Part shown: piece after piece, positions 9,194 to 29,091 of the stretch | How positions within the stretch are numbered: position 1 is the stretch's first letter | How the letters are laid out: every line of letters starts with the position of its first letter | Assembly (NCBI GenBank): GCA_028824125.1 | Contig: JAPPES010000025.1 | Coordinates: 1-64,000 of the forward strand | DNA length: 64,000 nucleotides | Direction of reading: 5' to 3' | DNA from: Candidatus Poribacteria bacterium | GTDB taxonomy: Bacteria > Poribacteria > WGA-4E > WGA-3G | Made by a program: the position numbers and the translations under genes | Notes under the pieces: model-generated | Database searches by the model: none | What the model was told of the DNA's origin: nothing | What the model saw: only the letters and a program-made list of their open reading frames with translations

Positions 9194-10303
9194 TTGAAAA
9201 CGACGCACATCAAAACGTTAAATGAGTACATAGAATGGGTTGAATCTATAAATCCCAATTTAAAATCCGAATTATATTTATTTCGGGGTTTGTCAGATGA
9301 AAAATACCATATAGAAGCGTCCGCATGGAGAAGATTGCCAAGTACACATAACAGAAGCAGTAATGACGAATTTCTTGAAATTAATAGGGTTTTAATCAAA
9401 GAAGCACGGCTTCAGGGACATGACTACAAGAATGGAAGGAAACTGACGGATTTAGAAGTGCTTGCTGAACTTCAACACTTAGGTGCAGCAACTTGTCTGA
9501 TAGATTTTACTTATAGTGCCCAAATCGCCCTCTGGTTTGCTTGTCAATTTAATCACAATAGTTCCACAAATGGAAACGTTGGAGCAGTTCTTAATAACCC
9601 AAATACAATTGAAGAAATTACACCAAAGATGTTGGAAGTGAGAGATTTTGATTCTTTTTTCAACGCGCCAAGTAGAAAGATATGGCAACCTCAACTTTTT
9701 CGATGGCAACCGAGGCACTTGAATAATCGAATTGCTTCACAACACTCTGTCTTTTTGTTGGGAGGTAACCAAGTTATTCCACCAGATGAAGAATGTATCA
9801 TTGACGCAACTTGCAAAGAAGAAATACTAAAATCTTTAGATGTTTGCTCACATATCACCGGAAAGACGCTTTTTAACGATCTTGAAGGTTTCGCGAGTCA
9901 ACATGCACATAACAAACCTTTCCCAGTACCCAACTATCTTGTTCTTGGTCACCAAGCATATCAAAGACAGGAATACGAGGAAGCTATTATTAACTATGAA
10001 AAGGCAATTCGTTGGAATCCAAAAGATGCAAACCCGTATTTCTGGCGCGGACACGCGAGAGTCTCTATACAACAATATCAAGAAGCCATTGAGGACTTTG
10101 ACGAGGTATTCCGTATAGGAAGGGGTAATATGGTAAATGTATATCAGATTCGAGGTTATGCGAAATCGTGTCTTGGTCTTTCTAACGAAGCAAAGCAGGA
10201 TTATCAAAAAGGCTTACAATTGGCTCAGCAGGATAACAATCAAGAAAAAATTGAAAACTTTCAAAATGCCCTTCGTGAACTCAATTCTTACACCACTGTT
10301 TGA
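9194..10303 (+). CDS. FRG domain protein with C-terminal TPR repeats
   Basis: 369 residues. The N-terminal two thirds is an FRG domain: LYLFRGLSDEKYHIEASAWR gives the name motif, and LQHLGAATCLIDFTYSAQIA matches its second conserved block (H.G..T.L.DFT....AL.FA). Residues from about 250 on are two or three TPR units (YLVLGHQAYQRQEYEEAIIN and following). FRG proteins are common in phage-defence loci, but their biochemical role is not settled. It starts at a TTG preceded by GAGGAG at about eight bases. It lies 40 bp upstream of mod1 and is probably cotranscribed with it. Confidence 0.87.
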   Translation: MKTTHIKTLNEYIEWVESINPNLKSELYLFRGLSDEKYHIEASAWRRLPSTHNRSSNDEFLEINRVLIKEARLQGHDYKNGRKLTDLEVLAELQHLGAATCLIDFTYSAQIALWFACQFNHNSSTNGNVGAVLNNPNTIEEITPKMLEVRDFDSFFNAPSRKIWQPQLFRWQPRHLNNRIASQHSVFLLGGNQVIPPDEECIIDATCKEEILKSLDVCSHITGKTLFNDLEGFASQHAHNKPFPVPNYLVLGHQAYQRQEYEEAIINYEKAIRWNPKDANPYFWRGHARVSIQQYQEAIEDFDEVFRIGRGNMVNVYQIRGYAKSCLGLSNEAKQDYQKGLQLAQQDNNQEKIENFQNALRELNSYTTV

Positions 10304-10343: not shown

Positions 10344-12011
10344 ATGTCAAAAGAAAACTTCAACGAAAAACTGATCGCACTTCTCAAAACCAACCCAGAC
10401 TTTACTGACGACTCAGACGAACTCATACCCGCTGCAGTCAAAGACCACGCATGGCAACTTGACCACAATCTCATCAGGTTACTCCTTACCGACGCCGAGA
10501 TAAAATCAACCTTCTTTAACGAGATTGATGGACATTGGGTTTTCAACTACAATACCTTTATTGACTACATCAACGAAAAGAACTTCCTTGCCAATTCCTA
10601 TACCCAGTTCCGCAACAAAATCGGTTTGAATATTGACGGTAAGTTTCTACGCGAACGCGGTGAAGTTTCGCTTGTGTGGCCCTACAAAGATTGCGTACTT
10701 GAAGGCGGACAAACGAAAGAAGAAGAGAAACGCAAAGAGATATTTTTCAATGAAATCCTTGCAAAAGACGAAATCAATCGGATTTTCGATCCGAAAGTGC
10801 TTACCAACTGGAAACGCCATACCGCCACTGGTGAACAGGATGTAACCGAAATCAAGCGCGACGACAACGGCACGATACGCGAAAACCTTATTATCAAGGG
10901 TAACAACCTCATTGCACTCCACACCCTTAAGCAGCAGTTCCGTGGGCAAGTCAAACTGATTTATATTGACCCACCATTTAACACTGGAAGCGATTCATTT
11001 GGCTATAACGACTATTTTAATCATTCCACTTGGTTGACGTTTATGAAAAATAGATTAGAAATCGCTAAAGAAATGTTAAGAGATGATGGATCGATCTATG
11101 TTCATCTTGATGCCAATGAAGTTCATTACTGCAAAGTATTGATGGATGAAATTTTTGGTAGAGACAATTTTCAGAGAGAAATTATTTGGCGTATTGGTTG
11201 GGTTTCAGGATACAAGACAGCAGTAAAGAATTGGGTCAGAAATCATGATACAATTCTATTTTATACAAATAAGAAATTATTTTTTAATAAAGAATATATT
11301 CCATACCCAGAAGACTATGAGCGCAGGGATGGAAGTTCCCCAGATGGTAAAGGACAGGCTATAGAAGATACTTGGAATTGCAATGAGTTAGACATACTTG
11401 ATTCTATTCAAATTATGAGTTTTGGCAAAGAAAAGACAGGTTTTCTTACCCAAAAGAATGAAAAATTATTAAGACGTATAATATATTCTGCTACAAATGA
11501 AGGTGATATTGTCCTTGATTTTACTGCAGGAAGTGGTACAACAAATGCAGTTGCTCACAAAATGAATAGACAATATATTGGAATTGAACAGTTAGAAAAA
11601 GGGATAAGATGTACAGTTCAACGTTTAAACAAAGTGATTGCTGGTGACAGATTTGGAATCTCTGAATCTGTGAATTGGCAAGGTGGAGGGAACTTTATCT
11701 ATTGCGAACTCATGCAATATAATCAAGCGTATATAGACAAAATCCGAACTGCAGATTCACCCGAGGAACTTGTTTCACTCTGGCAAGACATCGCCGAAAA
11801 CTCGTTCCTTAACTGGTATGTCAATGCAGAAACACCCGAAGATGCTATAGACGATTTCATTGCCATCGGTGACCTTGAAGCACAGAAACATCTGTTGGTA
11901 GAACTGCTGGATAAGAATCAACTCTATGTCAATCTCTCCGAAATGGCGGATGCGGATTTTGCGGTGAGTGGGCAAGATAAAGAACTGAATCATAAATTTT
12001 ACAATAAGTAA
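10344..12011 (+). CDS. Type III DNA methyltransferase (Mod subunit), copy 1
   Basis: 555 residues. It is a beta-class amino-methyltransferase: catalytic motif IV DPPF at residues 209-212 precedes the SAM-binding FTAGSGTT at 393-400. Such Mod subunits methylate adenine in an asymmetric site and guide the Res subunit. The first ~215 residues are about 88% identical to the second Mod at 14815, as are much of the last 90. The central part, where target recognition lies, is unrelated. Even the upstream GGAAATAATTCCCCATGTCA is shared. No res gene follows it, so it may use the Res at 21653 or act as a lone methyltransferase. It probably forms an operon with the FRG-TPR gene before it. Confidence 0.9.
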   Translation: MSKENFNEKLIALLKTNPDFTDDSDELIPAAVKDHAWQLDHNLIRLLLTDAEIKSTFFNEIDGHWVFNYNTFIDYINEKNFLANSYTQFRNKIGLNIDGKFLRERGEVSLVWPYKDCVLEGGQTKEEEKRKEIFFNEILAKDEINRIFDPKVLTNWKRHTATGEQDVTEIKRDDNGTIRENLIIKGNNLIALHTLKQQFRGQVKLIYIDPPFNTGSDSFGYNDYFNHSTWLTFMKNRLEIAKEMLRDDGSIYVHLDANEVHYCKVLMDEIFGRDNFQREIIWRIGWVSGYKTAVKNWVRNHDTILFYTNKKLFFNKEYIPYPEDYERRDGSSPDGKGQAIEDTWNCNELDILDSIQIMSFGKEKTGFLTQKNEKLLRRIIYSATNEGDIVLDFTAGSGTTNAVAHKMNRQYIGIEQLEKGIRCTVQRLNKVIAGDRFGISESVNWQGGGNFIYCELMQYNQAYIDKIRTADSPEELVSLWQDIAENSFLNWYVNAETPEDAIDDFIAIGDLEAQKHLLVELLDKNQLYVNLSEMADADFAVSGQDKELNHKFYNK

Positions 12012-12459: not shown

Positions 12460-14247
12460 TTACTTTTCAAAGTCAGGTGATAGATCAACTTCCCAGTTGT
12501 TCAACACCGGAGATAGATATATGTCAGCGTGCCGGTATAACACTGATACTGGCAACAAAAAACATGGGAGAGAGTCTCCAGTCAATTCTGGTTCCAATTC
12601 AATTGCTTCACTAAGGTCCTCCTCAGCCTTTTCAACATTACCTATTTTAAGATAAGCATTGTAGCGATTGTATAATGCTGCAACAATCCATTTGTGAGAA
12701 TATTGCTGTATATTTACTGCTTTGCTGATATTCTTAATAGCATATTTTAGATTACCGATTTTAGCGAAAAAAAGACCGAAATAATAAGATGCAGAAGCGA
12801 TATACCATTCTGTTTTCAGAATTTTTAATGCTTCATTAAAATCGTCAATAGCTTTTTCATATTCATTGATTTTAGTGTAAAAATGACCACGACAAAGGTA
12901 GACTGCAAAATTAGACTTTAGCATTATAGCACTTAACTTATCAAAACAATCAATAGCTTTTTCGTTCTTATTCATTTTTATGTAAATGTCACTAAGATTC
13001 AAATATGGCAAGAAATTGTGTTTTTCCAATTCTATTGCCTTGTTAAAGTCGGCAATTGCATGACCATCTTCACCTAATAGCATGTGCAGTTTGCCACGAC
13101 TATTGTATATTTCACTTGCTATTCTGTAGACTTCTTCATCGGAAGGTCTCCAACCTGAACGATCTTGAAAATCTGGTAAAATCCTAATTGCATGGTTGAA
13201 TACTTTGATTGCCGCATCATAGTCTTCACTATTTTGATGGGCATTACCAAGACTTAGATAGATTCGCTGTAATACTACATCATCCCGTATAAATAGTACT
13301 TGATCAGCTTTTTCAAAGTCAGCAATAGCGTGTTTATAGTCGCCAATTTTTGCGTAAACATTACCACGGCTGAGATAGGATTTGGCATTATATTGGCTTG
13401 CCTTGATAGCTTCATTAAAGTTGTCAATTGCTGATTCATTATCATCTATATACGCATGGACAATCCCGCGCCCTTGATAGGCTACGGCATAGTTTGAGTC
13501 CAATTTAATAGACTCACCAAATTTTTTCAAAGCTAAATCGTATTGGTCCTGAAGAATATAGTCATTGCCCTGTAGGTAATATGTAGTAGCCGCTAAGTAA
13601 ACACGTTGGAGTCTTATAACGCCGGCAAAATCCCCGTAGATAGTTTCAACGGATATACCGTGGTGCTTCAGCAGAAATTGTAGGACGTAACGTTTAAGGT
13701 TTTTCGGTATATTGACTATATTGACTCCTTCTTGCTTGATGTCAATGAAGCCTTCTTCAGGAATAACGAGTATACTTTTCTGAGCGATGATGCGATTATT
13801 TGTAGACTCAAGTTTCTTGATTTGACAATAATTGTGAACTCCCGGAAAACTCACTTTATCTTGTTCTAAAACAATAATCCTACCATTCTTGTCAGAAGAA
13901 CCATGACAAGCAAAGAAAAGAGCGATCAAATAGTCACTTGTAAAATCTATGCGGTTTGTAAGTCCTCCATAGTGTTGTACCATATCTGCAAATTCCGCTT
14001 CCTCTTCTTTGTCAGTAAATCTCCTATATTTTCTTAGAGAATTTTCTAGTAAACTCTGGATACCAAAAGGGTATCTAATTGGTAAATTTTCGTTGCGACA
14101 GAACCGATAAAGGTTTGAGGATACCTCCTTAAAGTGTTCTGACTCTCCTCGGTAAATATATGTTCCAACTGGCTTGCTTTCTACTAACTCACGAATCTCG
14201 TTAAGTTTTTCTAAAACAGCATTTAAATTGTCCATTTCGTTTCTCAT
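12460..14247 (-). CDS. FRG domain protein with long TPR array
   Basis: About 595 residues. The FRG domain occupies roughly the first 220 residues (GTYIYRGESEHFKEVSSNLY and HYGGLTNRIDFTSDYLIALF). About ten TPR units follow, for example YAVAYQGRGIVHAYIDDNES, AKSYLSRGNVYAKIGDYKHA and FAVYLCRGHFYTKINEYEKA. It is the second FRG-TPR protein of the island, placed in opposite orientation between the two mod genes, and a TPR platform suggests protein-protein contacts. The start is uncertain: TTG 14262, ATG 14247 and ATG 14238 are all in frame. Confidence 0.85.
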   Translation of the reverse strand: MRNEMDNLNAVLEKLNEIRELVESKPVGTYIYRGESEHFKEVSSNLYRFCRNENLPIRYPFGIQSLLENSLRKYRRFTDKEEEAEFADMVQHYGGLTNRIDFTSDYLIALFFACHGSSDKNGRIIVLEQDKVSFPGVHNYCQIKKLESTNNRIIAQKSILVIPEEGFIDIKQEGVNIVNIPKNLKRYVLQFLLKHHGISVETIYGDFAGVIRLQRVYLAATTYYLQGNDYILQDQYDLALKKFGESIKLDSNYAVAYQGRGIVHAYIDDNESAIDNFNEAIKASQYNAKSYLSRGNVYAKIGDYKHAIADFEKADQVLFIRDDVVLQRIYLSLGNAHQNSEDYDAAIKVFNHAIRILPDFQDRSGWRPSDEEVYRIASEIYNSRGKLHMLLGEDGHAIADFNKAIELEKHNFLPYLNLSDIYIKMNKNEKAIDCFDKLSAIMLKSNFAVYLCRGHFYTKINEYEKAIDDFNEALKILKTEWYIASASYYFGLFFAKIGNLKYAIKNISKAVNIQQYSHKWIVAALYNRYNAYLKIGNVEKAEEDLSEAIELEPELTGDSLPCFLLPVSVLYRHADIYLSPVLNNWEVDLSPDFEK

Positions 14248-14288
14248 ATAAATATTGACCAACTAAAGTCCTTCTCAGTAGCATCTTA

Positions 14289-14814: not shown

Positions 14815-16476
14815 ATGTCAAAACAAAGCTTCAACGAAAAACTGATCGAACTTCTCAAAACCAACTCTGATTTTGTTGACGAATCAGACGAACTCCTGCC
14901 CGCTGCAGTCAAAGACCACGCATGGAAACTTGACCCGAATCTCATCAGGTTACTCCTTACCGATGCCGAGATAAAATCAACCTTTTTTAACGAAATTGAC
15001 AGACATTGGGTTTTCAATCACAACACCTTTATTGAGTACATCACCGCCAAAAACTTCCTCGCCAATTCCTATACCCAATTCCGTAACAAAATTGGCTTGA
15101 ACATTGACGGTAAGTTTCTGCGCGAACGCGGTGAAGTTTCACTCGTTTGGCCCTACAAAGACTGCGTGCTTGAAGGTGGACAGACAAAGGAAGAGGAAAA
15201 GCGTAAAGAGATTTTCTTCAACGAAATCCTTGCACAAGACGAAATCAATCGGATGTTTGATCCGAAAGTGCTGACTAACTGGAAACGCTATACCGCCGCA
15301 GGTGAACAGGACGTAACGGACATCCAACGAGACTATAATGGCACGATCCGCGAAAACCTTATCATCAAAGGGAATAATCTCATTGCACTCCATACTCTCA
15401 AACAGCAGTTCCGCGGACAGGTTAAACTGATTTATATCGATCCGCCGTATAATACAGGTGGAGAGGCAAATATTTTCACCTATAACAATACTTTCAATCA
15501 TTCCAGTTGGCTCACTTTTATGAAAAACAGGTTAGATGTAGCAAAATTACTTTTGAGAGATGATGGATTTATTGCTATTGCAATAGATCATTATGAGTTG
15601 TTTTATCTTGGGACATTGGCAGATGAAATTTTCGGAAGGGAAAACAGGTTAGGTATTATTACCATTGTAAACAGACCACAAGGAAGACAGTTTGCAAATT
15701 ATTTTAGTGTTACCAATGAGTATATGCTGGTCTACTCAAAGAATAAGGATGTAGCAATTTTTAATGAGGTTGTTTTAACAAGCGATAAATTAGAAGAATA
15801 TGATAAGGAGGATGATAAGGGGAAATTTAAATCAGTACCGTTGATGTATTCTCGGTTTGTTGAAGATAAAATGTCCAAAAATCCACAGCAGCACTTCTAT
15901 CCCATATATGTTAGCAAAGATTTAACAGAGATTACATTATCAAAGGTTGATGGATACTATGAAGTTTTGCCGATTAACAATAAAAGAAAGATATGTTGGA
16001 AAGTTAAGAAAGATTCTTTGAAGAAAAAATTAAAAGGAGATCATGAATATTTTGCAGAAAAGATGAAAAATGGAGCTGTGCAAATTTATGAGAAATATCG
16101 GGAAGGTAGGGGTGTCAAAATAAAAACACATTGGGAGGATAGCAGATACAATTCCACTGAGAATGGAACTGAACTTCTGAAAAGAGTATTAGGATATAAG
16201 CCAAAGTTTAGTTATCCTAAATCTCTCTATGCCGTGTTAGACACGCTGAAACTAATGACAGTGGAAAACGATATTGTGCTTGACTTTTTCGCTGGTTCTG
16301 GCACAACGGGGCATGCCGTATTAGAATTGAACAAACAGGATGGCGGTTCCCGTCAGTTTATCCTCGTAGAGCAATTAGACGAACATGTTGCAGTTTGCAA
16401 GGAACGACTTGAGAAGGTTATCAACCATGAAGGTATTCTAAGCGAAGATTTTTTCTCATGTGAATTGAAGGAATAG
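14815..16476 (+). CDS. Type III DNA methyltransferase (Mod), copy 2, ended by an in-frame amber codon
   Basis: 553 residues up to TAG. The beta-class methyltransferase motifs are complete: DPPY near residue 210 and DFFAGSGTTG near 490. The first ~215 residues are about 88% identical to the Mod at 10344, while the middle differs, implying another target sequence. The reading frame stays open after TAG at 16474-16476 and continues as the C-terminal segment at 16489-16773, which mod1 carries fused. The amber codon stands where mod1 has TAT for Tyr (CELMQYNQAY versus CELKE-stop-NQIY), so one base change explains it. The catalytic motifs precede the stop, so the shortened protein might still bind SAM but lacks about 100 residues. 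Confidence 0.88.
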   Translation: MSKQSFNEKLIELLKTNSDFVDESDELLPAAVKDHAWKLDPNLIRLLLTDAEIKSTFFNEIDRHWVFNHNTFIEYITAKNFLANSYTQFRNKIGLNIDGKFLRERGEVSLVWPYKDCVLEGGQTKEEEKRKEIFFNEILAQDEINRMFDPKVLTNWKRYTAAGEQDVTDIQRDYNGTIRENLIIKGNNLIALHTLKQQFRGQVKLIYIDPPYNTGGEANIFTYNNTFNHSSWLTFMKNRLDVAKLLLRDDGFIAIAIDHYELFYLGTLADEIFGRENRLGIITIVNRPQGRQFANYFSVTNEYMLVYSKNKDVAIFNEVVLTSDKLEEYDKEDDKGKFKSVPLMYSRFVEDKMSKNPQQHFYPIYVSKDLTEITLSKVDGYYEVLPINNKRKICWKVKKDSLKKKLKGDHEYFAEKMKNGAVQIYEKYREGRGVKIKTHWEDSRYNSTENGTELLKRVLGYKPKFSYPKSLYAVLDTLKLMTVENDIVLDFFAGSGTTGHAVLELNKQDGGSRQFILVEQLDEHVAVCKERLEKVINHEGILSEDFFSCELKE

Positions 16477-16488
16477 AACCAAATCTAT

Positions 16489-16773
16489 ATGGACAAAATC
16501 CAAGCTGCACAATCCTCCGAAGAACTCGTAGAACTCTGGAAAAACATCGCTGAAAACTCTTTCCTAAACTATTATGTCAATGCAGAATTGCCACAAGAAG
16601 CAGTAGACGATTTCAAAGATATTGATGACCTTGAATCACAGAAACATCTATTGGTAGAATTACTGGATAAAAATCAACTCTATGTCAACCTCTCCGAAAT
16701 AGAAGATACGGATTTTGGGGTGAGTGCGGAAGATAAGGTGTTGAATAAGAAGTTTTATGGACGCGGATTTTGA
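16489..16773 (+). pseudogene. C-terminal segment of Mod copy 2, cut off by TAG
   Basis: 94 residues (IDKI-like start, AENSFLNYYVNAELP, KHLLVELLDKNQLYVNLSE) closely match the last 94 residues of Mod copy 1. It is in frame with the preceding Mod part, separated by TAG and four codons. It could be restored by readthrough, translated separately from ATG 16489 (no good ribosome site), or be dead. Its final codons (KVLNKKFYG) are echoed at 18026-18058. Confidence 0.8.
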
Positions 16774-16833: not shown

Positions 16834-18036
16834 ATGCTTATCCGTCTTAATAAAGATAAAGTTGAACACATTGCAGGGTTCCTGCATAGTGTTACTTCTA
16901 ACAATCAGTGTAAAATAACGGTTACTGAGGGTTTAACTTCAGACGAGCCGAAATTTTACCGATACATAGAACAAATTTCAAATACTTATTTTAATTCTAC
17001 TGAACTAATAGCAAATGTGAACAACATTCATAGTTTTTTAATACTTATTCATAATGATCTCAGCGCAGATATTTATATCAATGATTTTATTGTAGAAACA
17101 CAAGTCCGACTCAAACGAAATTTAGAAAGTTTTGAACCAGGAACACTTATCATGAAAAGTGATATAACAGATATATATGATTTAAGTTTCCCTAACATAG
17201 AAATCCAAGATTCAGATAGTATTATCTGTTGCTTGAAGGTTGGCTGGAAATTCTTACTGTATTTTGATTTTCTGAGCCAAGATAGAATATCTAATATTAC
17301 CACAAGACAAAAAACACTGGCAAGGTTATACAGATATTTAAGTTTTGAAGAAGTGTTTCGAACTCTGGAATCAAAGGATTACTTTAAGGGAATGATCTCT
17401 GACGGTTGGTTTCCATTCGTAGAGATTTTAAGCAAAGACTATAAAAATTTAACACTTAATCATCAAAATGAAAAATCAGTTTCCGAAAATGAAGTAAAAG
17501 CATTGCTTGATAGATTCGACGAATCGCGTATAAAGAGAATGACAGACAAGTGGTGGGAACAGCCACTTTTTCAGGAAAAGCAGGAACTAATACAAGCTGG
17601 TATTGATGCATTTCTTGGTGGAACAAAAAGCGACTATATAAATTGTATTAAGACACTTTATTCAGAGATTGAAGGAATTATGCGTTCTTTATATCTTGAG
17701 GATAGTGGTGAGAGGACACGACATATACAAAAACTTATTGACCGTCTCATAGAAGTTGGAGAACGTAAAGTCGAAGACGATCAATCATTACTTTTACCTC
17801 AATATTTTTCGAGTTATCTTGTAGAAAATATTTTCAAAGAATTTGATCCTGAAACTGGTGAGGTTGACTTATCACGGCACACAGCTCTTCATGGTGTTGC
17901 TTTAGTAGAGGATTATAAACAAGCAAGGGCGTTACAAGCTCTCCTAACACTTGATCAGATTTATTTTTATTTGCCTACATTACCTAACGAAAATCAAAAG
18001 AATAATTCGGAAATAGAGGAAGAAAGTGTTGAATAA
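16834..18036 (+). CDS. Unknown 400-residue protein inside the type III operon (X)
   Basis: 400 residues, no family recognised. The first half is mixed alpha/beta (LIRLNKDKVEHIAGFLHSVT; IIC CLKVGWKFLLYFDF region). The C-terminal ~180 residues look helical and include LSRHTALHGVALVEDYKQAR, in which R-x4-H resembles the HEPN ribonuclease signature; this is suggestive only. GAGGT lies about nine bases upstream of the ATG. It sits between the Mod pieces and the 1208-residue gene, with 21 bp to the latter. Its last codons overlap a short echo of the mod 3' end, which suggests it was inserted between mod and the next gene. Confidence 0.75.
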   Translation: MLIRLNKDKVEHIAGFLHSVTSNNQCKITVTEGLTSDEPKFYRYIEQISNTYFNSTELIANVNNIHSFLILIHNDLSADIYINDFIVETQVRLKRNLESFEPGTLIMKSDITDIYDLSFPNIEIQDSDSIICCLKVGWKFLLYFDFLSQDRISNITTRQKTLARLYRYLSFEEVFRTLESKDYFKGMISDGWFPFVEILSKDYKNLTLNHQNEKSVSENEVKALLDRFDESRIKRMTDKWWEQPLFQEKQELIQAGIDAFLGGTKSDYINCIKTLYSEIEGIMRSLYLEDSGERTRHIQKLIDRLIEVGERKVEDDQSLLLPQYFSSYLVENIFKEFDPETGEVDLSRHTALHGVALVEDYKQARALQALLTLDQIYFYLPTLPNENQKNNSEIEEESVE

Positions 18037-18058
18037 AGCGTTTTATGGAGAATCATAA
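18026..18058 (+). repeat. Echo of the mod 3' end
   Basis: In the frame not used by the 400-residue gene, these bases read V-L-N-K-A-F-Y-G-E-S-stop, matching the end of Mod copy 2 (KVLNKKFYG). At the DNA level GTGTTGAATAA(A/G)..GTTTTATGGA is shared with 16738-16761, with 21 of 24 bases the same. It is most simply the true old end of a mod gene that once abutted the 1208-residue gene. Confidence 0.65.
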
Positions 18059-21000
18059 TGCAAGCATTTGAAAATCATAATGTTCCTAAACCATTGGTGT
18101 TAACCCTTAAGCAGCAAGAGGTATTAAATGCTTTAAGGCGTAAAGAGACCGAAGAATATCCTCTTAGTCAATGGTATTATGGTGCCCTCTGTGCATTGGA
18201 AAACCATTACAATCCAGATCGTGTCGCACAAGCAGCCCATTCACTACGAGAGTTACTTCAGAAATTACCAGAAGTTGTTCCTGAAAGCAGTGTCCGAGTA
18301 GTAGGTTCAGGAGATTCAAAAAAATCTAAATTTATGACCATGCGAAATAAAATAGACAATTTGCTTTCAAGATCCAAAGAACGTTATCCAGAAGGTTGGA
18401 AAGGAAACAAAATTGATGAACATTTAGCGAAGGCACTTACAGAAATAGAAGAATACCTTAAGCTTAATCAGCAGCCAAATCGGGGAGAACGAGTACAACA
18501 AGCAATAGCTTCCATTGACCCAATGTATAATCAATTACACAGTGGGATTCAAGAGGCAAAACGGGAAAAATTGTTGAAATTATGGAAAAGATTAGAAAAT
18601 TTCACTCACCATAACATCAACATGCACGTTACAGAGTTTAAAGAATGCTTGGATGAATTGGAAATCATAGTGTTTGATCTTCTTGCTCCGATTACTGCTC
18701 AAGATCAACAGGAAATCCAAACGATTTTAAACTATCCCAACAAGTCTGAGAGTGCTTTAAACCGCATGTTTTCACTCATTGAACGCAGAGGATCCAACTT
18801 CGCGTTCTTTTTTAAGCAAGTATCAGAAAATGCAGATGTCACGTGGTTACCTTTCCTTGAAAAAAGAGGATATTTTGCATTTCCGCCAAACGTGCAGATA
18901 ACTGATCATAACTCTATTATTTGCCCTTTCTGGTGGCCAATACGTTATCTTGAAAAAATCTCCAGTCAAGCATCAAATGAAGTCATTGAAATTGTACGAC
19001 AACTTCCTCAAACTGATAATCCAAGAGTCTATGAAGGAATCTTAGATATTGGGTTGCAACTTCACGGGGAACATTCAGTAAAACTAAAACCTAAGATGCT
19101 TGAATATGTTTTTTTGGAGCACTTCCGTTTGCATCATAGATTTGCAGATTTGTTAGCACATTGGACAAAGGCGAATCAAACGTCGGCAGTATTGGAACTT
19201 GCAGAAATACTAATTGCGTTTGCACCCGACCCGCAGTCAGATAAAAAACGTAAACAGCGTTTAGACAATGCAGACGATTGGCGTGAGATGATAGGAACAA
19301 CACTTTATCCTGTTCCTAAATGTAGTCACTGGGAATACGCAAATATAATGTCCAAAGGAATTCGTCCACTTATTGAAAAGGAACCTTTTAAAGTTGCTTG
19401 TCTTCTTATTGATACTACGGTAAACATGATTCGTTTGCGGACACATCGGGAAGAACTTGATAAAGAGGAAGACTATTCCGATGCATGGTGTAACCGCGTT
19501 CATGGGCAAGATAATGACCACGAAGATCCCGAAAAAACACTTGTTCATACGTTGACCTTTGCGTGTAAAAAGGTTTTTGAAAAATCTCCTGACAAAGTCG
19601 CTGCTTTAGATAAGGCTCTACGAAAACCATATTGGAATATTTTCAAGCGTATGCGCCATCACCTTTATGCCCAATACCCAAATGAGGAAACCAAACCGTG
19701 GATACGGAAACTAATTTTGACACATGAAGATTACAATGAATTGGAACACTCTTATGAATTTCAACAGATGATACGACGTGCTTGTGAACACTTTAGTGAT
19801 ACGTTACTTTCAGAATCAGAACGCACCCGTATTTTTGATACTATACTTGATGGTCCATCAAAAGAAAATCAACGACATTTGGTTGAAGATTGGTTTGGAG
19901 AAGAATTCACAGAAGAACGTTTCCAAGAAAGCAAGCAGCGTTTCCATTGGAGGCAGCTAAGACCTTTTGAATCTGTTCTATTTGGAAAATATGCAACTCG
20001 TTTCAAAGAAGTCCAAGATATAATGAATAAACCCATTTCCGATGATAATTATCCGCCATATAAAACTGAAGTTAGAAGCGGTAGGGTGTCTGAACGTAGT
20101 CCACGCACCCCGGAAGATCTTTCCAATCTTACGGATAAAGAGTTACTTGATTTTATTAACGACTGGGAGAAAGATGATGAGTCTTATGAAAATAATTCAT
20201 TTGTAAGGATTAATATTGAAGCACTTGCCAATGCATTTCAGTCTGTTTTCAAGGAGACTATTATTTCTGATGCTGACAGGTTAGATTTCTGGATAGACAA
20301 CCGTAGTCGGATCAAGAGACCAATTTATGTGCGTGCAATGATTAATGCAATGCAAGTGGACGTAAAAGCAAAAAATTTTAACAAACTTAACAAGTGGTTA
20401 AGCTTCAGTGAATGGGTGCTAACGCATTCTAACCGAGATCAGAAAGGTGACCATAAAGGAAGTGAGAAATCGCGTAAGCATCCGAACTGGTCCAGTAGTA
20501 GGCGAGCAGTATGTGACTTTATCGGCGCATGTTTAGAAAAGGATGTAGATGTTCCAATTTCTGAGCGCGGGCAATTAGCTGGACTTCTGGAATTGCTTTG
20601 CACACAATTTGATTATTATTTGGATGAGAATAAGCCAAAAATCTTGAATCGATATGATCCATTTACCGAGGGCATCAATAATACACGGAGTCTTGCCCTA
20701 CGACAACTGCTCAAATTCGGTTATTGGTTACGAAGGCACGATTCGGAGTGTGAAGTACTTGAGGTCATGACGATTCTTGAAAAACGCTTTGCGCAAGAAA
20801 CCGAGTATCCGTTGATACTGCCAGAATATGCCGTTCTTGCTGCAAGCTACCGTCAGATTTTTTACCTCAATGAGACATGGGCGGCTAAGCACAGATCAGA
20901 CTTTTTTCCACAAGAAAGGCTGCGTGTCTGGTTAACGGCATTTGAATGTTTTATCAATTATTGTCAACCGTTCAAACCTACCTTTGAAATTTTCCAAGAC

Positions 21001-21684
21001 GATTTTAATTTTGCCTTGCAAAATCTAAATGGTTTTGAAAATCACGAAATCTCCGGTAGGGGACCGGTTGATACTCTCGGACAACATCTGTTTACCTACT
21101 ACTTGTGGAGTATGTATCCACTCACAGGGGAAGAGAGCCTGCTCGAACGATTTTACCAGAAAACAGATGGAGAAAGGGAACATTGGGGTAATTTGTTCAG
21201 AAATATCGGGCATCGTCTACGAAACAGCGGAGAAACGTTAGATCAAGATATGAAAGACAGAGTAATTGCCTTTTTTGAATGGCGTTTTAAAATAGGAGAA
21301 CCGTCAGAACTGAAATATTTCACTGTCTGGCTGCAAGCCGAATGTCTGGACGTTGAATGGCGGTTGAACGCCTATTCCAAAGTTATAGATGTATCCGAAT
21401 TAGAAGATTGGGAAATTTATTCGAACTTAAAGGAATTATGTCAAATGCTTGCAAAACATACCGCTAAGGTTGTTGAGTGCTTTGCAAAGCTAACCGATGG
21501 TATTCGTGATAACATTTACATTCAGGCAGAGGAAGCGGAGACCATCCTAACAGCAGGTCGTAATAGCGGAGATGCTATTGTGCAAGAAAATGTAGAACGC
21601 GCCCTTGACAACCTACTCCGCGCTGGTAGATCGGAATTTTTGAAACTCGCGATTGGCAAAGACAAACAAGCTTTGGAGAAATGA
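18058..21684 (+). CDS. Unknown 1208-residue helical protein between mod and res (Y)
   Basis: 1208 residues with no family or catalytic motif that I recognise: no Walker boxes, no nuclease signature. Nearly the whole protein reads as alpha-helical with Trp/Tyr/Phe-rich amphipathic stretches, consistent with a solenoid (HEAT/TPR-like) scaffold or sensor. A charged, probably disordered stretch lies near residue 800 (HSNRDQKGDHKGSEKSRKHP). The stop codon overlaps an ATG (ATGA at 21681-21684), indicating translational coupling to res. Its fixed place between mod and res suggests it belongs to the restriction system, perhaps as a specificity, assembly or regulatory subunit. No signal peptide is seen. 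Confidence 0.8.
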   Translation: MQAFENHNVPKPLVLTLKQQEVLNALRRKETEEYPLSQWYYGALCALENHYNPDRVAQAAHSLRELLQKLPEVVPESSVRVVGSGDSKKSKFMTMRNKIDNLLSRSKERYPEGWKGNKIDEHLAKALTEIEEYLKLNQQPNRGERVQQAIASIDPMYNQLHSGIQEAKREKLLKLWKRLENFTHHNINMHVTEFKECLDELEIIVFDLLAPITAQDQQEIQTILNYPNKSESALNRMFSLIERRGSNFAFFFKQVSENADVTWLPFLEKRGYFAFPPNVQITDHNSIICPFWWPIRYLEKISSQASNEVIEIVRQLPQTDNPRVYEGILDIGLQLHGEHSVKLKPKMLEYVFLEHFRLHHRFADLLAHWTKANQTSAVLELAEILIAFAPDPQSDKKRKQRLDNADDWREMIGTTLYPVPKCSHWEYANIMSKGIRPLIEKEPFKVACLLIDTTVNMIRLRTHREELDKEEDYSDAWCNRVHGQDNDHEDPEKTLVHTLTFACKKVFEKSPDKVAALDKALRKPYWNIFKRMRHHLYAQYPNEETKPWIRKLILTHEDYNELEHSYEFQQMIRRACEHFSDTLLSESERTRIFDTILDGPSKENQRHLVEDWFGEEFTEERFQESKQRFHWRQLRPFESVLFGKYATRFKEVQDIMNKPISDDNYPPYKTEVRSGRVSERSPRTPEDLSNLTDKELLDFINDWEKDDESYENNSFVRINIEALANAFQSVFKETIISDADRLDFWIDNRSRIKRPIYVRAMINAMQVDVKAKNFNKLNKWLSFSEWVLTHSNRDQKGDHKGSEKSRKHPNWSSSRRAVCDFIGACLEKDVDVPISERGQLAGLLELLCTQFDYYLDENKPKILNRYDPFTEGINNTRSLALRQLLKFGYWLRRHDSECEVLEVMTILEKRFAQETEYPLILPEYAVLAASYRQIFYLNETWAAKHRSDFFPQERLRVWLTAFECFINYCQPFKPTFEIFQDDFNFALQNLNGFENHEISGRGPVDTLGQHLFTYYLWSMYPLTGEESLLERFYQKTDGEREHWGNLFRNIGHRLRNSGETLDQDMKDRVIAFFEWRFKIGEPSELKYFTVWLQAECLDVEWRLNAYSKVIDVSELEDWEIYSNLKELCQMLAKHTAKVVECFAKLTDGIRDNIYIQAEEAETILTAGRNSGDAIVQENVERALDNLLRAGRSEFLKLAIGKDKQALEK

Positions 21685-24256
21685 TGCCCGAAAAATTTTT
21701 ACACGAACAGTATTAGAAGAATTCGGACGGAGAACCCTCCGAGAGACCGAAGTTACGGCATCCATCAAGGATAACCTTAACTCTACTTTTGAACTCCGTG
21801 AATATCAAAAGGAAGCATTCGTGCGGTTTATCCTCTGTTTTGAAAACGACTTTGAGGAGAAGGAAACACCCCTGCACCTACTATTCAACATGGCAACCGG
21901 TAGTGGTAAGACGCTCATCATGGCAGGCTTGATTCTCTATCTTTACGAGCAGGGATACCGCAATTTCCTCTTTTTCGTTAATTCCACCAATATTATTGAA
22001 AAAACAAAAGACAACTTTCTCAATCCGCGCGCTGCGAAATACCTTTTCAGTCAAGACATCCGTTTTGAAGGTAAACCGGTTGCAGTGACGCAAGTAGAAA
22101 ATTTTGAAGGAGTCAACGAAAACGACATCAATATATGCTTCACGACTATTCAGCAACTCCACACCGATATGAATTCGGAAAAGGAGAACGCCTTAACCTA
22201 CGAAAATTTCGCTGAACAGGAAATTGTGTTGTTGGCAGATGAAGCACATCACATGAACGTTAGCACAAAGACACAAACAGGAATGGTGTTATTTGAAAGC
22301 TGGGAGAATACGGTAGAACATATCTTTAAGTCCAATAACGCTAATCTATTGTTGGAATTTACCGCCACCCACGATTACGAAACACCCGCGATGGTAGAAA
22401 AATATCGGAATAAGGTTATCAATCGTTATGATCTAATAAACTTTCGGAACGATAAGTTTTCAAAAGAGGTTGTGCTTGTACATTCGGATTTAGATCAACA
22501 ATCGCGTATTCTGCAAGCACTCATTCTCAATCAGTACAAGCAGCAGGTCGCGGCGAAAAATGGCATTAACCTAAAACCTGTCATTCTTTTCAAGGCGCAG
22601 AAGACAATCGCACAATCGGAAGAGAACAAGGTGAATTTTCACAAACTGATTGATGGATTAACCGATGGCCAAATTCAAGGCATTCGGAAATCACCACTTG
22701 GGATTGTTCAACAGGCATTCCGCTTCTTTGACGAGAACGGAATCAGCAACGAACAACTGGTCCGGCGTCTGAAATCTGAATTTCAGGAAACATACTGCCT
22801 CTCGGTTAATGATGAAGATGAAAAGAAGAACTATCAGATACAGGTAAACACCCTTGAAGATAAAGACAACCCGATCCGTGCTATCTTTGCCGTGCAAAAA
22901 CTTAACGAAGGATGGGACGTGCTAAACCTATTTGATATTGTCCGTTGTTATGAAACCCGTGACTCAGGGAAGGGAAAAATCGGAACAACGACTACATCCG
23001 AAGCACAACTTATCGGACGCGGTGCACGGTATTTTCCATTTGTCTTACCAGACTATCCAGATAGATTCCGTAGAAAATTTGATGAGGAGCTAAACCATGA
23101 ATTGCGCGTGTTAGAAGAACTTCATTACCATAGCATCCACGATTCGCGTTACATATCGGAAATTAGAACTGCACTCATTGACCAAGGTATGATGGATGAA
23201 CGAGGCGTTACCCGTGAGTTAAAATTAAAGGACAAATTCAAGAAAACCAAATTTTACAAATATGGTGTTATCTGGCTTAATGAACAGGTCCCGAAGGATT
23301 ATCAACATGTCCAATCTTTTGATGACCTTGCAAATCTAAGTGTGGTGCAGAAAAACTATGAGCATTACATCCCGACAGGTTCTGCAGGTGAAACTACAGC
23401 AATGACACAAAGCACAACACCGATGCAACAAAACGACGATGGGCGGGACATACCCGTTGTTGATATTGAACAGAATATTCTTAGAGCCGCAATCGCGCGC
23501 ACTCCGTTTTTCACCTTTGCATCGATCAAGAAATATTGTCCACACCTAACATCTATAAGTGAATTTATGACATCAGGGAACTATTTAGGTGGATTGGCTA
23601 TCACATTCAAGGGGGACCTATTAAATTTAGATGAGAATCGTTATGCAAAACTGTTGGCATGCCAAGGGTTGTTAAGTCAAATTGAAACCGAAATTCGAGA
23701 CCAAGTAACTGAATACCAAGGAACAAAACACTTTATACCGAAACAGGTGCATGATGTATTCAAAGATAAACTCTTGAAATTTGATGCACGAAACCCGCGT
23801 GCAACTATTGATCGGCAGTTTGAGGACAAAGATTGGTTTCCATTCAACTCCCTCTACGGCACAAGCGAAGAAAAAGCATTCGTAGATTTGCTCATCAGGA
23901 AGGTAAAGACATTAGCAGCACATTATGATGAAATCTATCTACTCCGTAACGAAATGCATTTTGCGATCTATAACTTCTCTGATGGACAAGCATTCTATCC
24001 AGATTTTGCACTATTCCTACAAGAAAAAGAAGGGAATTTCGTTTGTTATCAATTTTTCGTAGAACCGAAAGGTAAATTTCTTCAACCGGCTGACCAATGG
24101 AAAGAAAGATTCATGAAAGAAATAACTGCCGAATTTAAAGATCAACTCTTAACAGTTGATAGTAAAGAATTTCGCTTGATTGGTTTGCCATTCTATAATG
24201 AACAGAATGAAAATCCATTTTGGGATGCCCTCAACGCTGTATTAACAACCGTATAG
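21653..24256 (+). CDS. Type III restriction enzyme Res subunit (helicase-nuclease)
   Basis: 867 residues from TTG. It is a superfamily 2 helicase with LREYQKEAFVRF, Walker A ATGSGKT (81-87), DEAHH (196-200) and motif VI QLIGRGARYFPF. A C-terminal PD-(D/E)xK nuclease shows YPDFALFL (D784) and FFVEPKG (E804, K806). With Mod it should cleave unmodified DNA after ATP-driven translocation or sliding. The true start is doubtful. ATG 21681 overlaps the previous stop as ATGA with GGAG just upstream, but its frame stops after 11 codons (MMPEKFLHEQY). One extra base in the AAAAATTTTT tract at 21691-21700 would join it to this ORF as MMPEKIFTRTVLEEFG. Confidence 0.9.
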   Translation: MAKTNKLWRNDARKIFTRTVLEEFGRRTLRETEVTASIKDNLNSTFELREYQKEAFVRFILCFENDFEEKETPLHLLFNMATGSGKTLIMAGLILYLYEQGYRNFLFFVNSTNIIEKTKDNFLNPRAAKYLFSQDIRFEGKPVAVTQVENFEGVNENDINICFTTIQQLHTDMNSEKENALTYENFAEQEIVLLADEAHHMNVSTKTQTGMVLFESWENTVEHIFKSNNANLLLEFTATHDYETPAMVEKYRNKVINRYDLINFRNDKFSKEVVLVHSDLDQQSRILQALILNQYKQQVAAKNGINLKPVILFKAQKTIAQSEENKVNFHKLIDGLTDGQIQGIRKSPLGIVQQAFRFFDENGISNEQLVRRLKSEFQETYCLSVNDEDEKKNYQIQVNTLEDKDNPIRAIFAVQKLNEGWDVLNLFDIVRCYETRDSGKGKIGTTTTSEAQLIGRGARYFPFVLPDYPDRFRRKFDEELNHELRVLEELHYHSIHDSRYISEIRTALIDQGMMDERGVTRELKLKDKFKKTKFYKYGVIWLNEQVPKDYQHVQSFDDLANLSVVQKNYEHYIPTGSAGETTAMTQSTTPMQQNDDGRDIPVVDIEQNILRAAIARTPFFTFASIKKYCPHLTSISEFMTSGNYLGGLAITFKGDLLNLDENRYAKLLACQGLLSQIETEIRDQVTEYQGTKHFIPKQVHDVFKDKLLKFDARNPRATIDRQFEDKDWFPFNSLYGTSEEKAFVDLLIRKVKTLAAHYDEIYLLRNEMHFAIYNFSDGQAFYPDFALFLQEKEGNFVCYQFFVEPKGKFLQPADQWKERFMKEITAEFKDQLLTVDSKEFRLIGLPFYNEQNENPFWDALNAVLTTV

Positions 24257-24259
24257 ACA

Positions 24260-24457
24260 TTGACCACTTCCGCGCACAGATTCATCGATACCAACTACAC
24301 AGGAGAACATTTCACAATAGTTGAAAGTGATGTTCCTGAGAAAAAGGATGGTTTTGTTGAAGGGAAATACACGGTAACGTTACCGCGCCCTGATGTGCGC
24401 GTTGCTGTGAAGATTATTGATATGCTTGGAGAGGAAACGATTGTTGTTGAGGAATGA
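24260..24457 (+). CDS. Small protein downstream of res (Z)
   Basis: 65 residues from TTG, in frame with res and only three bases beyond its TAG. I do not recognise the family. The sequence ends VAVKIIDMLGEETIVVEE and also has RFIDTNYTGEHFTIVE. No ribosome site is visible, so it depends on coupling or on readthrough of the res TAG. A degenerate copy of its last codons and of the bases beyond occurs at 25728-25762. Confidence 0.55.
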   Translation: MTTSAHRFIDTNYTGEHFTIVESDVPEKKDGFVEGKYTVTLPRPDVRVAVKIIDMLGEETIVVEE

Positions 24458-27669: not shown

Positions 27670-27693
27670 TTGGATATAATCAGGGAGCGTAAT

Positions 27694-28191
27694 ATGGCGC
27701 GTAGAACTTTTTACAGTTTTCACTACAAACCGGACAATTGGCGTGCTGCCCAAGTTAGAAACATGGGAGTTATAGAAGGCAACCGCCCAGTTTCAGATAA
27801 CGATTGGGAACAAATCAAAAGAGGTGGAAATAAAGCAATTCAGGATTGGATTGATGGACAACTAAAAGGTAAATCTTGTACGATTGTCCTAATTGGCGCG
27901 AAGACTGCAAGAAGAAAGTGGATTGACTATGAAATCAAAAAGTCTTGGAACGATGGAAAAGGTGTTTTGGGTATCTATATCCATAATCTGTTAGACCGTG
28001 ATGGCTACAAGTCTGCAAAAGGCAAAAACCCATTCGCTCACTTTACTATGGAACGTGATGGAAAGAAACTTTCCAATATCGTCAAGGCTTATGATCCACC
28101 TTACACAAGCAGCAAATACGTCTATAACCATATCAAGAAAAACCTTACAACTTGGGTGGAAGATGCTATTTCAATTCGGAATAACTATTAA
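27694..28191 (+). CDS. TIR-like (MTH538/ThsB-like) domain protein
   Basis: 165 residues. RTFYSFHYKPDNWRAAQVRN, CTIVLIGAKTARRKWIDYEI and GKGVLGIYIHNL fit the MTH538 TIR-like fold found in ThsB of Thoeris anti-phage systems, where the TIR protein senses infection and makes an NAD-derived signal. The Glu of WIDYEI is in the place expected for the catalytic residue. Start 27694 has GGGAG six bases upstream. Its partner here is the small membrane protein rather than a SIR2 or Macro ThsA, so calling it a Thoeris variant is an inference. Confidence 0.82.
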   Translation: MARRTFYSFHYKPDNWRAAQVRNMGVIEGNRPVSDNDWEQIKRGGNKAIQDWIDGQLKGKSCTIVLIGAKTARRKWIDYEIKKSWNDGKGVLGIYIHNLLDRDGYKSAKGKNPFAHFTMERDGKKLSNIVKAYDPPYTSSKYVYNHIKKNLTTWVEDAISIRNNY

Positions 28192-28535: not shown

Positions 28536-28925
28536 TTATTTCTTTAAACACTCAGTAATTTTTGCATCAATTTGTTTCCAATCCCACTTAATCTCATCAC
28601 CTGCCCCAGGGACAGCACCGCTTGTCCTTTTCTGCGGGCGAGTCTGGAACATCGCTTTACCTTCCTGACTCGCGAATGCTACTTCTTTTTTAACACCAGG
28701 CGCGTTATGAGTATCTTGTCCTAAAACGACAATCACAATATCCGAAAGTAAAATTTGCTTTTTTGCTTCCTTGAACCAACTATTATCATCCGGACGAAGT
28801 GTTTCTTTCAGGGAGTAATCTTTAATCTCATAGTCAGAGTACTTCTTGGCTTGCGCGTAGAAATTGGGCTGAAGTTCTCTATCTTTGTCAAACTCAAAAC
28901 TTAGAAAAACCTTAACTTTTGCCAT
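28536..28925 (-). CDS. TIR-like (MTH538/ThsB-like) domain protein, second
   Basis: 129 residues. It has VKVFLSFEFDKDRELQPNFY, a W-containing middle (DDNSWFKEAKKQILLSDIVI) and VVLGQDTHNAPGVKKEVAFA, the TIR-like nucleotide-binding pattern with a Glu in the expected place. It is shorter than and only distantly similar to the TIR-like protein at 27694. ATG 28925 has AAGGAG about seven bases upstream, which rules out the start at 28943. No partner gene is on its strand. Confidence 0.75.
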   Translation of the reverse strand: MAKVKVFLSFEFDKDRELQPNFYAQAKKYSDYEIKDYSLKETLRPDDNSWFKEAKKQILLSDIVIVVLGQDTHNAPGVKKEVAFASQEGKAMFQTRPQKRTSGAVPGAGDEIKWDWKQIDAKITECLKK

Positions 28926-29091
28926 ATTATACTTCTCCTTCATATTTTGAATATTTGCATCTTTATTTTCGGATAATTGCCCCTACCTTAAACCGCCAGT
29001 TTGCTTGTTGCTGGACATACTCTAAAAGATTGGACTACGCAAAACCGTAATGCTCTCATTCCAAATCGGCATTGGATGCCGAATGGACATT

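Follow-up and report, generated by a model that had tools for sequence, protein, structure and literature searches.

The 64,000-nt stretch analysed here (the window), from a Candidatus Poribacteria bacterium, carries a type III restriction-modification (R-M) operon in which two further genes, X and Y, lie between the methylase gene mod2 and the restriction gene res (Table 1). Our favoured reading, to which we give a probability of a little under 60%, takes the type III operon to be a carrier, Y to be a self-contained DSR1-like anti-phage module and X to be a second, independent cargo gene. The mod, X, Y and res genes form a single tight operon, all on the forward strand, and are presumably co-transcribed. 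Loci compared with the window are cited by L numbers, and genomes and contigs by G and C numbers.

A DSR1-like solenoid with exchangeable N-terminal partners

Positions 296-1062 of the PADLOC Dsr1 model PDLC04166 aligned with residues 219-1037 of Y (E 1.8e-15) and, judged by this profile alignment, the C-terminal solenoid of Y is homologous to the Dsr1 model. Distant Y relatives were matched as well (L041, 3.5e-29; L042, 9.9e-12; L032, 1.7e-6; L143, 1.3e-16). The preliminary description had presented Y as a large helical protein without a recognisable motif. Its helical nature was borne out by an AlphaFold2 model (22 sequences; mean predicted local distance difference test score, pLDDT, 76.9), in which a solenoid begins at about residue 220, mostly at 80-95 pLDDT with some lower stretches, behind a poorly modelled N-terminus. 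Pfam, NCBIfam and PDB sequence searches, unlike PADLOC, gave little for the whole protein.

DSR1 is a sensor of a phage protein, with a SIR2 NADase at its N-terminus. Y shares its general plan, a large C-terminal part made of helices that follows an N-terminal domain, but differs in that this domain is pP_pnuc_1-like (or, in relatives, a separate small gene) and in being borne by an R-M operon; no SIR2 family was listed in Pfam scans of Y or of its first 281 residues. DSR2 is described as sensing the tail tube and depleting NAD+.

When residues 1-281 of Y were scored alone, they reached 28.8 bits for PF18165 (pP_pnuc_1; cut-off 26.3), and the whole Y of L144 reached 27.9 bits. In this domain, H61, R64, E65, H184 and H185 are conserved. 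The domain also occurs detached from the solenoid. Among intact near-family Y genes of Poribacterial genomes, 15 of 21 are short (947-992 aa), and 12 of the 15 are preceded by a small gene, c2 (~212 aa when complete), with a 29-base overlap in all twelve; the remaining short genes comprise two at contig edges and L061, which has no c2 in view. The c2 profile aligned with the family of Y N-termini over 205 columns (hhalign, 95.4%, E 1.8e-8); a separate comparison built from other rows reached 70.4% and 3.9e-5 over 69 columns. In the Chloroflexota loci L163-L165, a separate gene of 235-240 aa encodes a protein 27-28% identical to the Y N-terminus (E 4e-13 to 2e-27 in single comparisons). The N-terminus of the Y relative in L143 (Latescibacteria) is a PIN_12 domain (83.4 bits), and in L042 a separate SIR2 gene (PF13289, 37.6 bits), whose product is matched by the Dsr1 models PDLC04167 and PDLC02183, overlaps a Dsr1-like solenoid gene. 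Because pP_pnuc_1-like, PIN_12 and SIR2 domains are found beside or within solenoid genes, the solenoid, as classified by these matches, has no fewer than three types of N-terminal partner, either fused to it or encoded separately.

Poribacteria account for 19 of the 26 Y relatives in named database records, and a search of Chloroflexota gave a match at E 1e-20 in 6 of 400 genomes, two of which were the starting ones. Intact Y open reading frames (ORFs) are long, 50-65% identical and conserved in their overlaps; broken copies occur in L034, L036, L058 and L039. A Chloroflexota type I operon (L162:7988-17294) encodes HsdR, a 240-aa protein, a protein kinase and a Y relative recognised by the Y profile, the AHLLREIES-bearing N-terminus of which had no Pfam match.

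Changing cargo between mod and res

A res gene is present in 47 of 84 Poribacterial genomes, at 67 distinct places (70 rows). We read 60 of these (left out were G066:C48, G066:C1, G056:C85, G056:C9, G077:C74, G058:C22 and G051:C41), and 43 had mod upstream in view. Among the other 17, L099, L102, L108 and L113 had ~8 kb or more visible upstream; in L108 and L113, mod is located after res. We take the insertion to be more than a chance event: 34 of the 43 loci (window included) have one or more ORFs of 110 aa or longer in the mod-res interval, although in some of them these are only transposase-like or unnamed. Mod-res spacing is at most 60 nt in 7 of 43, four of which overlap by 23 nt.

The slot is recurrent and its cargo changes. 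By locus, it holds Y in 11 (including L045, L046 and L058, in which mod, Y or res is broken), c2 in five, a 463-aa family in 12, RmrA in five, an RmrT-like gene in five, X in three, DUF3800 in three and a YhgA-transposase-like gene in four, with others once or twice; transposase-like ORFs thus occupy it in several loci. The RmrA, DUF4411, DUF3800 and transposase labels rest on one scanned member each, extended by BLAST clustering. By a hand count, 28 of the 43 loci contain one or more members of the set Y, X, 463-aa family and RmrA/RmrT. The 463-aa family (e.g. L100:7712-9103, L111:6727-8250 and L117:9385-10773) keeps an R-x4-H motif near the C-terminus in all 13 members spanning the site (15 aligned), and neither Pfam nor PADLOC gave a match for L100 and L111, the two that were scanned. 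In five relatives, the slot is filled by RmrA-like and DUF4411 genes, the latter of which we take to be RmrT; only the L092 pair was scanned, with PADLOC naming RmrA alone, and the other loci were joined by the clustering. These proteins are unrelated and show that different modules can fill the slot. Since related bacteria hold changing defence-like sets there, the restriction operons seem to be carriers of exchangeable immune modules.

Restriction context of Y

The res genes of the window and L062 share 90% identity, yet L062 carries c2 and a Y ~54-55% identical to the window Y; a broken res in L117, 92% like the window's over residues 54-442, accompanies the 463-aa protein, DUF3800, RmrA and RmrT. 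Over 11 loci, the identities of Y and res show a weak correlation (r 0.385, a value equalled or exceeded in 223 of 5000 permutations). On a tree of 28 intact near-family Y copies, 8 changes are required to place the label 'type III', of which well-supported branches force 7 or more, and 45 of 500 shuffles were as low. Broken, edge and most distant copies (L034-L040, L058, L147, L031, L032, L162-L165) were left out of the tree. Context labels were assigned by hand, 'none' meaning no mod/res match or R-M operon among the neighbours scanned.

By these labels, 18 of the 28 Y copies have R-M genes of type I, II-like or III linked to them, 7 lie beside none recognised, 2 at contig edges and 1 after a DUF1156 protein. 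L033, which bears the label 'none', has an Eco57I-type methylase beside c2 on the opposite strand; L053 has a contig edge just upstream. Beyond this group, type I neighbours of Y relatives include HsdS in L139, hsdR-hsdM-hsdS in L143, hsdR-hsdM with two small ORFs in L040 and the HsdR-started operon of L162; L141 and L142 have a methylase with an HNH domain, and L144 has mod-res. No R-M gene was found among the few neighbours scanned in L136, L164, L041 and L042.

X, a cargo gene with a C-terminal R-x4-H motif

X was first noted for a HEPN-like C-terminal R-x4-H pattern. This pattern (R348 and H353 in X) is indeed kept in all 7 rows spanning the site (8 aligned) and in the more distant L076 and L077, but the HEPN assignment comes from the motif alone: Pfam, PADLOC and NCBIfam assigned X to no family with a usable E-value, and X had no profile match to Pfam, PDB or the 463-aa R-x4-H family. 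Relatives of X lie between mod and res without Y in L074 and L075 (G073, G047), whereas L076 and L077 have no mod/res labelled nearby. Further relatives, at 26-32% identity, are found on eight plasmid records from rhizobial and Rubrobacter plasmids, five of which were viewed in context. Compared with its relative in L074 (4077-5342), X is identical at 131 of 140 positions over residues 241-380, and at 44 of 98 (1-100), 46 of 87 (101-190) and 27 of 50 (191-240) in the front part, as if a constant effector end had been joined to a diversified front.

Proposed mechanism and alternatives

In our favoured reading, the Y solenoid would recognise a component made during infection, most likely a phage protein, and the pP_pnuc_1-like domain, which takes the position of the DSR1 SIR2 NADase, would then act as effector and halt the cell, with nucleic acid as its probable target. 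X would probably be an RNase of the R-x4-H (HEPN) type whose N-terminal half serves as a sensor of its own. The simplest account would be a layered defence of restriction, followed by a DSR1-type suicide module and an RNase-like gene, switched on together. Because X and Y run in the same direction as mod and res and are tightly spaced with them, a phage escaping restriction would meet a suicidal second layer.

Several observations weigh against this reading. The whole Y scores 24.7 bits for PF18165, under the cut-off; among six c2 proteins scanned with Pfam (L050, L062, L054, L040, L141, L136), the family touched only that of L141, at 18.6 bits and below the cut-off, as are the separate genes of L163-L165 (16.8-20.6 bits). 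The effector or catalytic role of the pP_pnuc_1-like domain is a prediction. The short Y proteins of L050 and L062 had no PADLOC match and link to Dsr1 only via their 64% and ~54-55% identity to the window Y. Fold matches of Y were generic HEAT/ARM-type helical repeats with no specific relative among them, and PDB sequence searches matched none of the solved DSR proteins. The link to an R-M carrier is not obligatory, since seven Y copies have no recognised R-M operon. Finally, mod2 and the res start look damaged in the window, so the operon may be decaying.

This damage, together with the broken Y copies L034, L036, L058 and L039, the transposase-like ORFs in the slot and the nearly unclustered type III context on the Y tree, would also fit neutral hitchhiking, in which genomes full of mobile elements simply tolerate insertions in the mod-res gap and X and Y currently play no part in defence. 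Long Y ORFs kept intact at 50-65% identity with conserved overlaps, and recurring cargo that includes RmrA/RmrT and R-x4-H families, speak against this explanation, which we consider unlikely. The preliminary description had suggested that Mod, X, Y and Res may act together as one expanded complex for restriction or abortive infection. It is supported in part, by the single tight operon and the presence of X and Y together in the window, but the complex itself we rank as highly improbable.

In a third alternative, Mod-Res would keep Y (and X) silent and release would follow when a phage inhibits or escapes restriction, like PrrC with EcoprrI. PrrC is a suicidal accessory gene embedded in ecoprrI, a type IC R-M operon, and is released by T4 Stp (PMC12707154), and at least 16 HEPN clades are R-M-linked and proposed to act like PrrC (Anantharaman et al. 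2013; PMC3710099). A PrrC-like position inside an R-M operon holds for the window and its relatives, Y stop and res start overlap in six relatives, and Y is repeatedly linked to R-M genes of types I, II-like and III. On the other hand, this one solenoid family would have to be held by three R-M types and also occurs alone, 7 of 28 near-family copies having no recognised R-M operon, and Y and res co-vary weakly; we consider such guarding possible but unlikely. PrrC, an anticodon nuclease of type I systems, combines an ABC-ATPase with HEPN (PMC3710099), whereas Y, here in a type III operon, is a helical solenoid with another N-terminal domain. Pfam, PADLOC and NCBIfam listed neither an ABC-ATPase nor a PrrC family for X or Y. 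The R-M-linked HEPN genes also differ in that no DSR1-type solenoid is named in the available part of PMC3710099, and in the exchangeable mod-res cargo found here in Poribacteria. Activation of an HEPN system by tail proteins is described in PMC11087260.

Were the carrier reading true, it would take DSR-type immunity past NAD+ depletion, to one sensor scaffold with interchangeable effectors. Type III systems would gain a counterpart of PrrC in type I operons. More tentatively, and at somewhat less than even odds, the DSR1-type solenoid may be a general sensor chassis with an exchanged effector (SIR2, PIN or pP_pnuc_1-like, fused or encoded by an overlapping gene), for which R-M operons, foremost the mod-res junction of Poribacterial type III systems, serve as a standing exchange site where modules turn over and the restriction genes persist; DSR-type immunity would in that case gain a new class of effector, the pP_pnuc_1-like domain. 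Reading the mod-res interval would offer a simple route to further defence genes, an unnamed family, the 463-aa one, being already visible in 12 of 43 loci. Defences genetically embedded within immune systems are reportedly the subject of a 2024 preprint by Payne et al. Genes between mod and res were not the topic of any title or abstract start found in open PubMed Central (PMC) text, a search that covered no preprints.

Flanking operon genes and genomic setting

Table 1 Features of the mod2-res operon in the window
Feature	Position	Strand	Basis
mod2, type III methylase, 553 aa	14815..16476	+	PF01555 124.6 bits, PF12564 71.3 bits
mod2c, last 94 Mod residues, separate ORF	16489..16773	+	aligns with C-terminal end of mod1 and relatives' Mods
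X, 400 aa, cargo protein, C-terminal R-x4-H (SRHxxxHG), HEPN-like by motif only	16834..18036	+	alignment of relatives
Y N-terminal domain (residues ~1-231), pP_pnuc_1-like, predicted effector	18058..18750	+	PF18165; carries AHSLREL and FTHH
Y C-terminal helical solenoid (residues ~219-1208), DSR1-like, predicted sensor	18712..21684	+	PADLOC Dsr1 PDLC04166 match; AlphaFold2 model
res, type III restriction/helicase subunit, 867 aa from TTG	21653..24256	+	PF04851 108.6 bits; PADLOC REase_III 2.2e-138
Z, 65 aa, 3' remnant of another DNA methylase gene	24260..24457	+	match to L050 ORF end

The layout mod2-X-Y-res-Z first described stands as to X and Y between mod and res, but mod2 is split by an in-frame TAG (16474-16476), with its continuation in mod2c, and Z is a remnant and no subunit, because it matches the last ~60 residues of a longer, N6_N4_Mtase-containing methylase ORF in L050 (77% identity over Z residues 8-64). 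The long Mod ORFs of the relatives read run for 611-680 aa without a stop, except for mod1 (555 aa) and one of 561 aa. Despite the split, mod2 has the N6_N4_Mtase and type III Mod N-terminal domains, and the window res has the ResIII helicase domain. The proposed Y/res coupling is likewise seen in part: the ATGA at 21681-21684 is present, but its ATG is out of the res frame. In relatives, res starts at an ATG overlapping the Y stop (L050, L051, L052, L057, L061 and L062), and the equivalent start in the window is 21684. Just past this position the window is 1 nt shorter than L062, which puts the conserved start out of frame with the listed res ORF, so that the latter reads from the upstream TTG (21653). 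The 1-nt difference may be a real frameshift or an assembly error, the two being indistinguishable here.

The mod1 gene (10344-12011) lies upstream in the window. Its product is identical to that of mod2 (14815-16773) at 197 of 225 positions over mod1 residues 1-225 and at 65 of 95 at the C-terminus, but at only 57 of 154 (226-380) and 33 of 70 (381-460) in the middle part, as if the two were distinct specificities built on one frame by exchange of the target-recognition part. The host lineage is presumably a sponge symbiont, and its assembly comprises 5.59 Mb in 162 contigs, among which the window is C161. A second, degenerate copy in the same genome (L045; G000:C160:1-9200) consists of a mod end, c2, a short Y and a fragmented res.

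The operon is part of a defence-like island at 9-29 kb, which encodes two FRG-domain proteins (both PADLOC PDC-S15), mod1, mod2, X, Y, res, a DUF2806 protein and two ThsB-type TIR proteins. FRG-TPR proteins lie on both sides of mod1 (9194-10303 and 12460-14262), and in G044 (L046) a relative of FRG1 is found upstream of a broken mod, Y and a res fragment. The genes for the ThsB-type TIR pair (27670-28191 and 28536-28943; 100.4 and 34.2 bits) face each other less than 400 bp apart.
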